Positions 1,285-11,390 of a stretch of DNA of 64,000 bases are shown here, one piece after another. The stretch is from Peptococcaceae bacterium (GTDB taxonomy: Bacteria; Bacillota; Peptococcia; DRI-13; PHAD01), in NCBI GenBank assembly GCA_024655825.1, contig JANLFJ010000012.1, forward strand, positions 1-64,000, written 5' to 3'. The translations under genes and the position numbers were made by a program. A model generated the notes under the pieces. That model did no database searches and had not been told where the DNA came from. It saw only the letters and a program-made list of their open reading frames with translations. The number at the start of each line of letters is the position of its first letter. Position 1 is the first letter of the stretch.

Positions 1285-1327
1285 TCTATGAAACCATGCT
1301 CAGACCGATATATTATTTTTTAATTAA

Positions 1328-1350
1328 ATAACATCCTTGAAGGATGTTAT
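1328..1350 (-). terminator. Hairpin terminator of the thioredoxin-like gene
   Basis: Perfect 9-bp inverted repeat ATAACATCC-TTGAA-GGATGTTAT, followed on the minus strand by a T-rich tract. It overlaps the stop codon of the minus-strand gene and faces the end of glycerate kinase, so it may serve both directions. Confidence 0.65.
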
Positions 1351-1592
1351 TTAGCCAGGGAGGCCTTGATTATTTTGGCCGCCTCTTCCCTGGAAGGCAC
1401 TTTCCCCAAAAGCTTCACTTTTCCGTCAATGATCAGGGCGGGGGTCATCAATATGCCTGTCTGAGCTATTTCATTAATATCGGAGATTTTGCCGATCGAT
1501 GCGTTCACGTTCATTTCCTGTACGACCTCACGGACGATTTCTTCAAGTTTTTTGCATTTGGCTCATCTGGTGCTCACGATCTTGATTTCCAT
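1347..1592 (-). CDS. Thioredoxin-fold redox protein with in-frame TGA (probable selenocysteine, UAKC)
   Basis: Reading TGA (1563-1565) as an amino acid gives an 81-residue protein beginning MEIKIVSTR-U-AKCKKLEE and ending TPALIIDGKVKLLGKVPSR-, the pattern of small archaeal/bacterial thioredoxin-like proteins (TM0996/MTH895 type). In these the motif is normally CxxC; here residue 10 is the TGA and residue 13 is Cys, giving UxxC. The frame stays open and family-like for 71 codons after the TGA. The start ATG at 1592 follows an AGAGAGGTG ribosome site. A selenium-metabolism cluster begins about 900 bp away. I could not draw a convincing SECIS by eye. The alternative is a nonsense mutation or a TGC-to-TGA read error. 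Confidence 0.75.
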
Positions 1593-1628: not shown

Positions 1629-1862
1629 TTAAGAGCAGCAGCATGCCGGGACTTTCCTTTCGCCCGTGTCGCCGAAATAGCTGATAGCTCCTTGGGGGCA
1701 CTTTTTCTGGCAGCCCCTGCAGCCGTCGACGCAACCGTCCGGGTTAATAACGGAGGGCAGGCTCTTTTCCTTGTCGTAGACGCCGTGAGTGCAGTAGTTT
1801 ACGCATATCATACACTCACTGCAAAGGGAATAGTCTATAACGGGGTACCAGTTTTTTGCCAT
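1629..1862 (-). CDS. Small 2[4Fe-4S] ferredoxin-like protein
   Basis: A 77-residue iron-sulfur protein, presumably a cytoplasmic electron carrier. Two Cys clusters are visible: CSECMICVNYC near residues 14-24, and CVDGCRGCQKKCP near residues 44-56. The protein ends in ACCCS, an unusual Cys-rich tail. I choose the ATG at 1862, with GAGGAG nine bases upstream, over the ATG at 1871 that abuts it. It sits just upstream of the UAKC thioredoxin-like gene on the same strand, with a 36-bp gap, so the two probably form an operon and may exchange electrons. The partner and function are not known. Confidence 0.8.
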   Translation of the reverse strand: MAKNWYPVIDYSLCSECMICVNYCTHGVYDKEKSLPSVINPDGCVDGCRGCQKKCPQGAISYFGDTGERKVPACCCS

Positions 1863-1990
1863 TCTATCCATCTCCTCGCTGTAAATTATATAAATAAATT
1901 CTTATATAATTATATCACCTAGATTATATTACGCAACCGGATAAAAAAAAAGCAATACCGGACGAGGGTGAATAATTTGTTTCTTGATTG

Positions 1991-4805: not shown

Positions 4806-5900
4806 TTGGACGATAAAAGAGGGATCGTTTTAGCAGGCGCGGTCATAGGCGCGCTTGCGGTTGTCCTGGTACAGGCGGGCAATGCCGTCAATTACGGGAT
4901 CTGCATAGCCTGCTTTATTCGCGATACGGTGGGGGCATTGGGGCTCCACAGGGCCGAGGTTGTGCAGTATATCAGGCCGGAACTGCTGGGAATAGGTCTG
5001 GGCGCTTTTCTTACGGCCGCAGTCAAGAAGGAATTCTCCCCGCGCGGCGGATCGGCGCCGTTAATACGTTTTATCCTGGGTTTTTTTGTAATCATCGGTG
5101 CTTTAATGTTCCTGGGCTGTCCCCTGCGGATGGTCCTCAGGCTTGCCGGGGGAGACCTCAATGCTGTCTTTGGGCTGTTGGGCTTCATCGCCGGCATTGT
5201 CACCGGCATCCAGTTCTTGAACAGGGGCTTTAGCCTAAAAAGGACGTATGCGCTTTCCCAAGCGGAAGGGTATGTTTTTCCGGGCATAAACCTGGTCGTC
5301 CTTGCATTGCTGACGGCTACGCCTCCGTTTATCTTTTTCAGCGTTAAAGGACCGGGAGCCGCTCATGCGCCGCTTTTGATTTCCCTGGCCGCCGGTCTGG
5401 TTGTGGGGGCTGCCGCGCAAAGAACAAGGCTTTGCATGGTCGGCGGGATCAGGGACGCTGTTCTTTTCCGTGAATGGCATCTTCTCCTGGGCTTCCTGGC
5501 CATATTCGCCGCCGCTTTGGCTGGCAACCTGGCGGTGGGCAAGTTCAACCCCGGCTTTGCGGGGCAATCCATCGCCCATACAGACGGCCTGTGGAATTTT
5601 CTGGGCATGGCTTTGGCCGGTTGGGGGTCTGTCCTGCTGGGCGGCTGCCCGTTGAGACAGCTCATCTTGTCCGGGGAAGGGAACATCGACTCCGTGATTG
5701 CCGTGCTGGGCATGGCGGCAGGAGCGGCCTTCGCCCACAATTTCAACCTGGCTTCTTCGACCAACGGGCCCACCTTTAATGGGCAGGTGGCCGTAATCAT
5801 TGGCTTTGTGGTGGTGTTTGCCGTCGCTTATTTCAATATGGACAGAAGCCCGGCGGTAAAAATGAAGGGAGGAATAAAAGTTGACTCTAATGCAGGTTGA
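4806..5900 (+). CDS. yedE: YeeE/YedE-family transporter, putative selenium/thio-compound uptake
   Basis: Integral membrane protein of 364 residues with about nine or ten hydrophobic segments. It carries the conserved Cys motifs of the YeeE/YedE (TsuA-like) fold: CIACFIRD, GCPLRMVLRLAGGDLNA, RTRLCMVGGIRD and GGCPLRQLILSGEGNID. In TsuA such cysteines relay thiosulfate, and in this context the family is annotated as a putative selenium transporter. The TTG at 4806 is used; the nearby ATG at 4799 runs into a stop. The gene overlaps the next one by 20 bases, so translation is probably coupled to the TusA-like protein that would accept the imported chalcogen. Confidence 0.87.
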   Translation: MDDKRGIVLAGAVIGALAVVLVQAGNAVNYGICIACFIRDTVGALGLHRAEVVQYIRPELLGIGLGAFLTAAVKKEFSPRGGSAPLIRFILGFFVIIGALMFLGCPLRMVLRLAGGDLNAVFGLLGFIAGIVTGIQFLNRGFSLKRTYALSQAEGYVFPGINLVVLALLTATPPFIFFSVKGPGAAHAPLLISLAAGLVVGAAAQRTRLCMVGGIRDAVLFREWHLLLGFLAIFAAALAGNLAVGKFNPGFAGQSIAHTDGLWNFLGMALAGWGSVLLGGCPLRQLILSGEGNIDSVIAVLGMAAGAAFAHNFNLASSTNGPTFNGQVAVIIGFVVVFAVAYFNMDRSPAVKMKGGIKVDSNAG

Positions 5901-6096
5901 CGCAAGAGGTATGTCCTGCCCGGAACCGTTATTGATGACCAAAAAGGCTATGGGCGAATCGCCGGCAGGTTTCCAGGTCATTGTGGACAATAATACGGCC
6001 CGGGAGAATGTCAGCAGGTTCGCCCGAGGGAACGGCTACCGGGTTAAGGTGGAACAGGACGGCAACGATTATGTTTTGACGATAACCAGGGAATAG
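5881..6096 (+). CDS. TusA/YedF-like sulfur or selenium relay protein
   Basis: A 71-residue TusA-fold protein with the signature CPEP (MSCPEPLLMTKKAM, residues 11-24); the Cys carries a persulfide or perselenide in this family. YedF proteins of selenium clusters usually have a second DsrE-like domain making about 200 residues; only the TusA half is here. The TTG start at 5881 has GGGAGG eight bases upstream, while the ATG at 5890 is too far from it. It lies between the membrane importer and the DUF3343 protein, as expected for a carrier. Confidence 0.87.
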   Translation: MTLMQVDARGMSCPEPLLMTKKAMGESPAGFQVIVDNNTARENVSRFARGNGYRVKVEQDGNDYVLTITRE

Positions 6097-6112
6097 GCAG
6101 GCGGGTGGTTCG

Positions 6113-6352
6113 ATGGAATACCTGGCCACCTTTCACACCCACTCCGGGGCGTTGAAATATTGCCGGTACCTGCAGGGGAAAGGGATTGCGGCTGAAACCA
6201 TGCCCGTGCCCCGCAGGTTCAGCTCCAACTGCGGCATTGGGGTCAAATTCCGGTTGGACGGCGATATAAACGATTTCATCAGCGAGGACATCGAAAGACT
6301 TTTCCAAATAGACCAGCCTGAAGCCAGGCAGATTTACAGCAGCCTGGAATGA
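6113..6352 (+). CDS. DUF3343 protein, putative Se/S carrier-like
   Basis: A 79-residue protein matching DUF3343 (MEYLATFHTHSGALKYCRYL, then PVPRRFSSNCGIGVKF). Family members are encoded near SelD, YedF and YedE and have been suggested to carry Se or S; conserved cysteines are at residues 17 and 40. It is the last gene of the yedE operon, 16 bp after the TusA-like gene, and a strong terminator follows. Biochemical function has not been shown for the family as far as I know. Confidence 0.87.
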   Translation: MEYLATFHTHSGALKYCRYLQGKGIAAETMPVPRRFSSNCGIGVKFRLDGDINDFISEDIERLFQIDQPEARQIYSSLE

Positions 6353-10250: not shown

Positions 10251-11390
10251 TTGATAGAGCACAATTACCTGGTAGCCGCGCAATGGTTGTTCTGCGCTCT
10301 TGTTGCCAGTCTAATTTCCATTCGCGTCGGCATTTCGGTGGCTTTGATCGAAATAATGGTGGGAATAATGGCAGGGAATATTATCCAGCTAGAAATTACT
10401 GAATGGGTAAATTTTCTGGCCGGGTTTGGAGCCGTTATTTTGACTTTTATGGCGGGGGCTGAAATTGAACCGAGGACATTGAAAGAACACTTCTGGGAGA
10501 GCATCATCATCGGAACATTGGCTTTTCTATTACCCTTTTTAGTCTGCATGGCAGGAGCATATTATGTGTTTCACTGGGACCCGAATGCTTCCAAGATTGC
10601 CGGCATCGCTTTATCGACAACTTCCGTGGCGGTTGTGTATGCTGTCATGATTGAGAGCGGGCTGTCATCAACTTCGCTTGGGCAGGCTATACTAGCCGCT
10701 TGCTTTGTCAATGACCTTGGCACTGTTTTGGCGCTTGGTTTGTTGTTTACAGGTTTCACCATGAAACTCCTCATGTTTTCGATAGTTTTGGTAGTCACCG
10801 TGCTGGTTAGCACACCATTAGCCTCTAGGATATTTCAAAAATACAGCGGCAAAGTCAGTGAACCCGAAATAAAATTCATCTTTTTCGTGCTGGCATTGCT
10901 GGCTTATGCAGCCTTGTACGGCGGCAGCGAAGCGGTATTGCCGGCTTATATCCTGGGGATGGTCATGGCAGGTTTTTTTACTATGTACAAAGCAACACTT
11001 CACAAAATCCGGGCCATAATCTTCACGGCTTTTACGCCGTTCTACTTTATTAAAGCCGGTATTCTTGTTTCCTTTAACGCGTTGGTTGCGACGGCGGGAG
11101 CCATTTTAGTCTACCTGTTGTTTAAAACACTCGCAAAATTTATTGGAGTGCTGCCGACCACAAAATATTTTGGTTACGGCAAAAGACGGGGAATCTATAC
11201 CACCCTTTTGATGAGCACCGGTTTAACTTTCGGCACGATCTCGTCCTTATATGGTTACACGCATCATTATATAACCAGGGATCAGTACAGCGTGCTGGTG
11301 GCCGCAGTAATCCTGAGCGCCGTTGTGCCGACTCTGATTGCCCAAAAGTTTTTTTATCCAATGCCTAATGGAAACGATAATGTGGATTAA
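10251..11390 (+). CDS. Cation:proton antiporter (CPA2-type)
   Basis: About 379 residues with roughly a dozen membrane segments of the sodium/hydrogen exchanger fold: GIMAGNIIQLEI, an acidic FMAGAEIEPRTLKEHF, and the core ATTSVAVVY-like segment STTSVAVVYAVM with ACFVNDLGTVLALG, which holds the family Asp. I prefer the TTG at 10251, with CGGAGG seven bases upstream, because it starts right before the first membrane helix. An in-frame ATG at 10152 lies inside the aptamer. A 22-codon ORF (10168-10236) behind the riboswitch could be a leader. Antiporters are a known fluoride-riboswitch class, so a role in ion or pH homeostasis during fluoride stress is likely. Confidence 0.85.
   Translation: MIEHNYLVAAQWLFCALVASLISIRVGISVALIEIMVGIMAGNIIQLEITEWVNFLAGFGAVILTFMAGAEIEPRTLKEHFWESIIIGTLAFLLPFLVCMAGAYYVFHWDPNASKIAGIALSTTSVAVVYAVMIESGLSSTSLGQAILAACFVNDLGTVLALGLLFTGFTMKLLMFSIVLVVTVLVSTPLASRIFQKYSGKVSEPEIKFIFFVLALLAYAALYGGSEAVLPAYILGMVMAGFFTMYKATLHKIRAIIFTAFTPFYFIKAGILVSFNALVATAGAILVYLLFKTLAKFIGVLPTTKYFGYGKRRGIYTTLLMSTGLTFGTISSLYGYTHHYITRDQYSVLVAAVILSAVVPTLIAQKFFYPMPNGNDNVD

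Follow-up and report, generated by a model that had tools for sequence, protein, structure and literature searches.

Small thioredoxin-like proteins of the MTH895/ArsE family (TIGR00412, PF13192), of which 1ILO is a solved example, contain a GxGCxxC active site. Related selenocysteine (Sec) proteins are known, namely SaoT, with a UxxC motif (NF040730), and, in PF13192 itself, the thioredoxin-like selenoproteins Sec.1 and Sec.2, with the motifs CxU and UxC (PMC13188914). The bSECIS hairpin has been modelled with an apical loop of 3–9 nt bearing an early G, located 16–37 nt from the UGA and folding at −7.5 kcal/mol or below (PMC13188914), while the program bSECISearch misses about 13% of known selenoprotein genes (PMC12013277). 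Here, we describe a gene of the MTH895/ArsE family in which a TGA occupies the codon of the first active-site Cys. Reciprocal decay of duplicated copies is, with moderate confidence, the explanation that best accounts for this TGA, the gene being a recently inactivated spare copy of the ArsE/MTH895 type.

The thioredoxin-like gene is located at positions 1347–1592 on the minus strand of the window, i.e., the whole stretch of 64,000 nucleotides of Peptococcaceae DNA analysed, and the in-frame TGA is its codon 10 (1563–1565, minus strand). Translation from 1592 to 1347 through the TGA gives a product of 81 residues, MEIKIVSTRUAKCKKLEEIVREVVQEMNVNASIGKISDINEIAQTGILMTPALIIDGKVKLLGKVPSREEAAKIIKASLAK, that terminates at a TAA. 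With Cys put in place of the TGA, this product matches PF13192 (Thioredoxin_3) over approximately its whole length (88.8 bits, cut-off 24.8) and TIGR00412 at residues 2–76 (89.3 bits, cut-off 62). These full-length matches show that the frame is a real thioredoxin-like gene and not a chance one, as proposed in the initial annotation, and the TGA indeed stands in place of the first Cys in the CxxC motif, which Sec decoding would turn into UAKC, since homologues have TGC or TGT there. The gene contains no frameshift; a strong Shine–Dalgarno-like stretch, GAGAGGTG, lies 5' of its ATG, and an intrinsic-terminator-like stem-loop, AACATCCTTcAAGGATGTT (1326–1350, minus strand), which is kept in the closest relative (G009, locus L041), lies 3' of its TAA. 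Reassignment of TGA is ruled out, as it is an ordinary stop in this host, terminating 13 of the 32 long ORFs of the window.

An intact ferredoxin-like gene with a 2×[4Fe–4S] motif and a CCCS tail (1629–1871, minus strand) precedes the thioredoxin gene at a distance of 36 nt, and the two probably form one operon with the ferredoxin as its first gene. Upstream of the ferredoxin gene, a perfect 10-bp inverted repeat (AATTATATAA-8 nt-TTATATAATT, 1884–1911) constitutes a putative ArsR/SmtB-like operator, largely present in L041 and partly conserved in a second copy of the operon on contig C15 of the same genome. The gene order in L041 comprises ACR3 and ArsR (divergent), followed by ferredoxin, thioredoxin, an ArsP-like permease, and ArsR, which makes this locus a cluster of the arsenic type. 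A permease is missing from the window copy, and its thioredoxin gene is followed by the terminator and then by a convergent glycerate kinase gene. The putative operator, the ribosome-binding site, and the terminator are all intact. Nearby, a TauE/SafE-like ORF (2044–2382) covers only the C-terminal half of PF01925 (136–236 of 237), and its frame extends upstream across a TGA at 2020–2022 (F-TGA-P-C); this ORF is probably a truncated remnant.

The second copy presents the opposite lesion. Its thioredoxin gene (C15:55063–55296) is 78% identical to the window copy, retains an intact CAKC, and is located in an arsenic island with an ArsP-like permease, ACR3, and ArsM as neighbours, whereas its ferredoxin is reduced to MKKMAKNWYPVIDYSFK*, i.e., the first ~16 codons and then a stop, just upstream of the Cys thioredoxin (L059, about 10340–10395, minus strand). 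A search for the ferredoxin found a match in the host genome only on the window contig (C12), which thus holds the only intact copy found. Therefore, the gene that was lost differs between the copies: the window copy keeps the ferredoxin with a broken thioredoxin, and the C15 copy keeps the thioredoxin with a broken ferredoxin. In the same island, ArsM, an arsenite methyltransferase, is fused with an ArsN2-type acetyltransferase (L059, 5680–6957), and a third, distant paralogue with 33% identity and an open frame but no CxxC is also found on the contig (C15:23804–24037, L011). Damage in this operon is common among relatives. The ferredoxin of L041 (2332–2574) has a TAG at the codon of Trp8 (codon 8), being otherwise 79% identical and intact, and that of another relative (G090; L160, about 1300–1760, C64), upstream of the thioredoxin gene, shows an apparent 1-nt deletion in the codon of the first cluster Cys that leads to a frameshift. 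Moreover, the ferredoxin search returned no ferredoxin in several, or even most, of the other genomes with a close thioredoxin.

In its working form, the operon consists of the ferredoxin and, as second gene, the thioredoxin, under an ArsR-type repressor and with the ArsP-like permease next in relatives, and the CxxC of the thioredoxin presumably provides reducing equivalents or handles a thiol-bound metalloid for efflux. After duplication, the two copies probably decayed reciprocally: the window copy keeps its ferredoxin and has lost the thioredoxin active site through the change of Cys10 to TGA, so that its translation most likely ends after nine residues, while the C15 copy keeps the CxxC thioredoxin and the permease and has lost the ferredoxin beyond ~16 codons. 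We infer that codon 10 is not decoded as Sec, together with this order of events and this function. Decay is favoured because no SECIS and no homologue with TGA were found, because invariant Gly residues are lost, because a Cys paralogue is present, and because the operon decays in relatives as well; the TauE gene, located 450 bp away and reduced to its C-terminal half, was also counted for this explanation. The weights given to the competing readings throughout are a matter of judgement and were not computed.

The principal alternative, which we regard as unlikely although it survives better than any other, is a true selenoprotein in which SelB inserts Sec at codon 10, yielding a UxxC protein paired with the ferredoxin of the operon and directed by a SECIS that departs from the usual form or is very weak. 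Sec could provide a better nucleophile or metalloid ligand at the first active-site residue in an arsenic-responsive operon. The host is equipped for this. Its draft genome (3.16 Mb in 98 contigs, 99.5% complete, with an estimated contamination of 2.2%) contains a tRNA-Sec (77 bits), the gene of which adjoins selB, as well as selA directly beside a Sec-type selD that has its own in-frame TGA (C17:28085–29041). The presence of these four genes, which the initial annotation had named as the ones to look for, means that the host is able to make Sec, and the idea of a host lacking the Sec machinery is thus ruled out; a genome without selB or selC, which would have refuted the initial reading, is not what was found. 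The host SelD is thus predicted to be a selenoprotein as well, and 16 nt past its TGA lies a clear bSECIS hairpin, GGUC-CGGGA-GACC. In the window, a selenium metabolism-associated LysR regulator (NF040786; 2458–3423, plus strand) matches its NCBIfam model with 342 bits (cut-off 250) and is accompanied by the YedE selenium transporter (505 bits, cut-off 200), a TusA/YedF-like protein, and a DUF3343-type Se/S carrier (4806–6352, plus strand), the last two supported by Pfam, and by a cysteine desulfurase family protein identified by NCBIfam. All members of the selenium set, which was initially reported to start less than 1 kb from the gene, are real; of these, only the LysR gene starts within that distance (2458), and yedE starts at 4806. 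These neighbours demonstrate selenium use by the organism and are not co-operonic with the thioredoxin gene.

The homologues speak against Sec. Their alignment, suggested initially as a means of finding out whether others have TGA or TGC/TGT at this position, revealed no other TGA: Cys occupies the position in 75 of 75 aligned homologues, encoded by TGC or TGT in the close ones tabulated by codon. All 75 likewise have G7, G9, C10, and C13, while the window gene reads SxR-TGA-AKC in place of the GxGCxxC of TIGR00412, with codons 7–9 (1566–1574, minus strand) being AGC ACC AGA (S T R). Apart from the window gene, no active-site stop was found in 60 relatives, nor among the matches listed from 399 genomes of the phylum, the host being the only member of its genus among the genomes compared. 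The TIGR00412 profile survey lists only the best matches, below which weaker TGA forms may lie, and the few phylum matches flagged for TGA were taken as having terminal stops without being individually read, on the basis of a profile search of the same genes in which the two strongest have no stop inside the domain. Homologues with TGA were also sought in the order, plasmids, phages, IMG/VR, and GTDB contigs, and none were found, the plasmid and phage matches not being read by codon.

The distribution of the changes within the gene is the strongest point for Sec. Among 17 columns conserved at 85% or more, the window gene differs at only three (G7S, G9R, and C10-stop) and the other 14 are untouched; under a random spread over the 17 conserved columns, the probability that all three losses fall by chance within the four active-site columns is 0.006. 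Furthermore, only 1 of the 28 one-step nonsense changes available in the thioredoxin gene lands on the redox Cys. When codons 7, 9, and 10 are excluded, the branch of the window gene (0.099) is not clearly longer than that of the paralogue (0.080), which indicates that the gene was normally constrained until recently and that the change is local; dN/dS is uninformative owing to saturated synonymous sites. Such a local change can mean either that a recent multi-base mutation inactivated the gene or that the active site was remodelled to accommodate Sec.

The search for a SECIS, in turn, disfavours Sec. Hairpins were scored under the bSECIS constraints, with 14 homologous Sec-SelD genes, including that of the host, as controls (row L093 of the control table, a chance motif match and not a SelD, was left out). 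Under the same scoring, these controls range from −7.8 to −19.4 kcal/mol, whereas the best constrained hairpin after the window TGA reaches −4.3 kcal/mol and none attains the limit of −7.5 kcal/mol, so that the look for a bSECIS after the TGA, suggested initially, gave none at the threshold of the model. The scorer is permissive, since it lets through many coding positions and even some Cys genes, and failing is consequently more telling than passing. A weak hairpin, CGUCC-GUGA-GGUCG (approximately 1520–1536, minus strand), lies about 31 nt past the TGA, inside the 16–37 nt range, and its apical loop starts with G-U; loop and spacing fit the model, but its energy of −3.7 kcal/mol does not. The hairpin is not significant, given that 73% of synonymous shuffles equal or surpass the folding of the region of the TGA, which is, moreover, less structured than most, with only 12.5% of random coding positions in the window being weaker. 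Finally, the 25 nt past the TGA are identical to those of the Cys gene of L041, which implies that no new element has been built 3' of the TGA.

Taken against decay were the stop exactly on the redox Cys, the intact operator, ribosome-binding site, and terminator, the 14 untouched columns, the clustering of losses in the active-site loop, unlike uniform decay, and the presence of the Sec machinery together with the fraction of known selenoprotein genes that bSECISearch misses. The same position of the TGA on the nucleophilic Cys, the conserved and not clearly accelerated remainder of the gene, and the restriction of changes to the active-site loop, which suggests remodelling over general decay, favour Sec, as do the host machinery, the known Sec relatives, and the placement of the weak hairpin. 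Against it stand the energies of −3.7 to −4.3 kcal/mol, weaker than in every Sec-SelD control and no better than in synonymous shuffles, the absence of a TGA homologue from the genomes searched, the loss of invariant G7 and G9, and the disabled operon genes of relatives. Accordingly, the initial judgement that Sec is likelier than a random stop holds only in part: the gene, the Cys-to-TGA replacement, and the Sec machinery are real, but no SECIS at the threshold of the model and no TGA homologue among those compared were found, G7 and G9 are lost, a Cys paralogue is present, and related operons are disabled. The complete proposal, in which a UxxC selenoprotein of the ArsE/MTH895 type has its own ferredoxin partner, is encoded in an operon under ArsR control, and is decoded although no bSECIS can be recognised, appears doubtful and slightly less probable than Sec at codon 10 as such.

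A base error or a strain mixture in the draft assembly, with TGC or TGT as the true codon, is improbable. The number of contigs and the estimated contamination of the draft would allow it, and every homologue has one of these codons; however, an error would a priori hardly be expected to hit this exact codon, and it would leave the adjacent changes G7S and G9R to be explained as well. Least convincing, and very improbable, is the use of a low amount of product arising from near-cognate readthrough of the TGA or from a restart at the internal ATG of codon 27, which, in the codon-level comparison of close sequences, occurs only in the window copy and opens an ORF of 55 residues, but has no properly spaced ribosome-binding site ahead of it, as read from the sequence, and would yield a fragment without the entire active site. 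Explanations other than decay, Sec, or sequence error deserve, as a whole, scarcely any more weight.

Decay of the spare copy would make this gene a useful decoy, showing that Sec machinery, selenium-related neighbours, and a TGA on a catalytic Cys are insufficient for calling a selenoprotein. If codon 10 were instead decoded as Sec, the gene would extend to UxxC a thioredoxin family for which this motif is not listed, tie selenium to arsenic handling, and provide a test case for insertion without a recognisable bSECIS. Among known systems, SelD with Sec (TIGR00476) has an in-frame TGA at its catalytic Cys in the same genome, but also a clear hairpin right after it that the window gene lacks. 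SaoT of the SAO organometal system, which has UxxC, is also a small thioredoxin-like protein, and the permease found in relatives of the window operon is a sub-threshold match to SaoE; however, no other Sao genes were seen adjacent to the window gene, no SECIS was found, and membership of SaoT is ruled out on score (19.9 bits, where NF040730 requires 65). Sec.1 and Sec.2 share with the window gene the Pfam family PF13192 and have Sec in place of an active-site Cys, as the window gene would if codon 10 were decoded as Sec, and their motifs differ from UxxC. The closest likeness is that to MTH895/ArsE, with a full-length match, an ArsR-type operator, and, in relatives, an ArsP-like permease and ACR3, from which the window gene departs in the TGA at its first Cys codon and in the replacement of invariant G7 by Ser and G9 by Arg.
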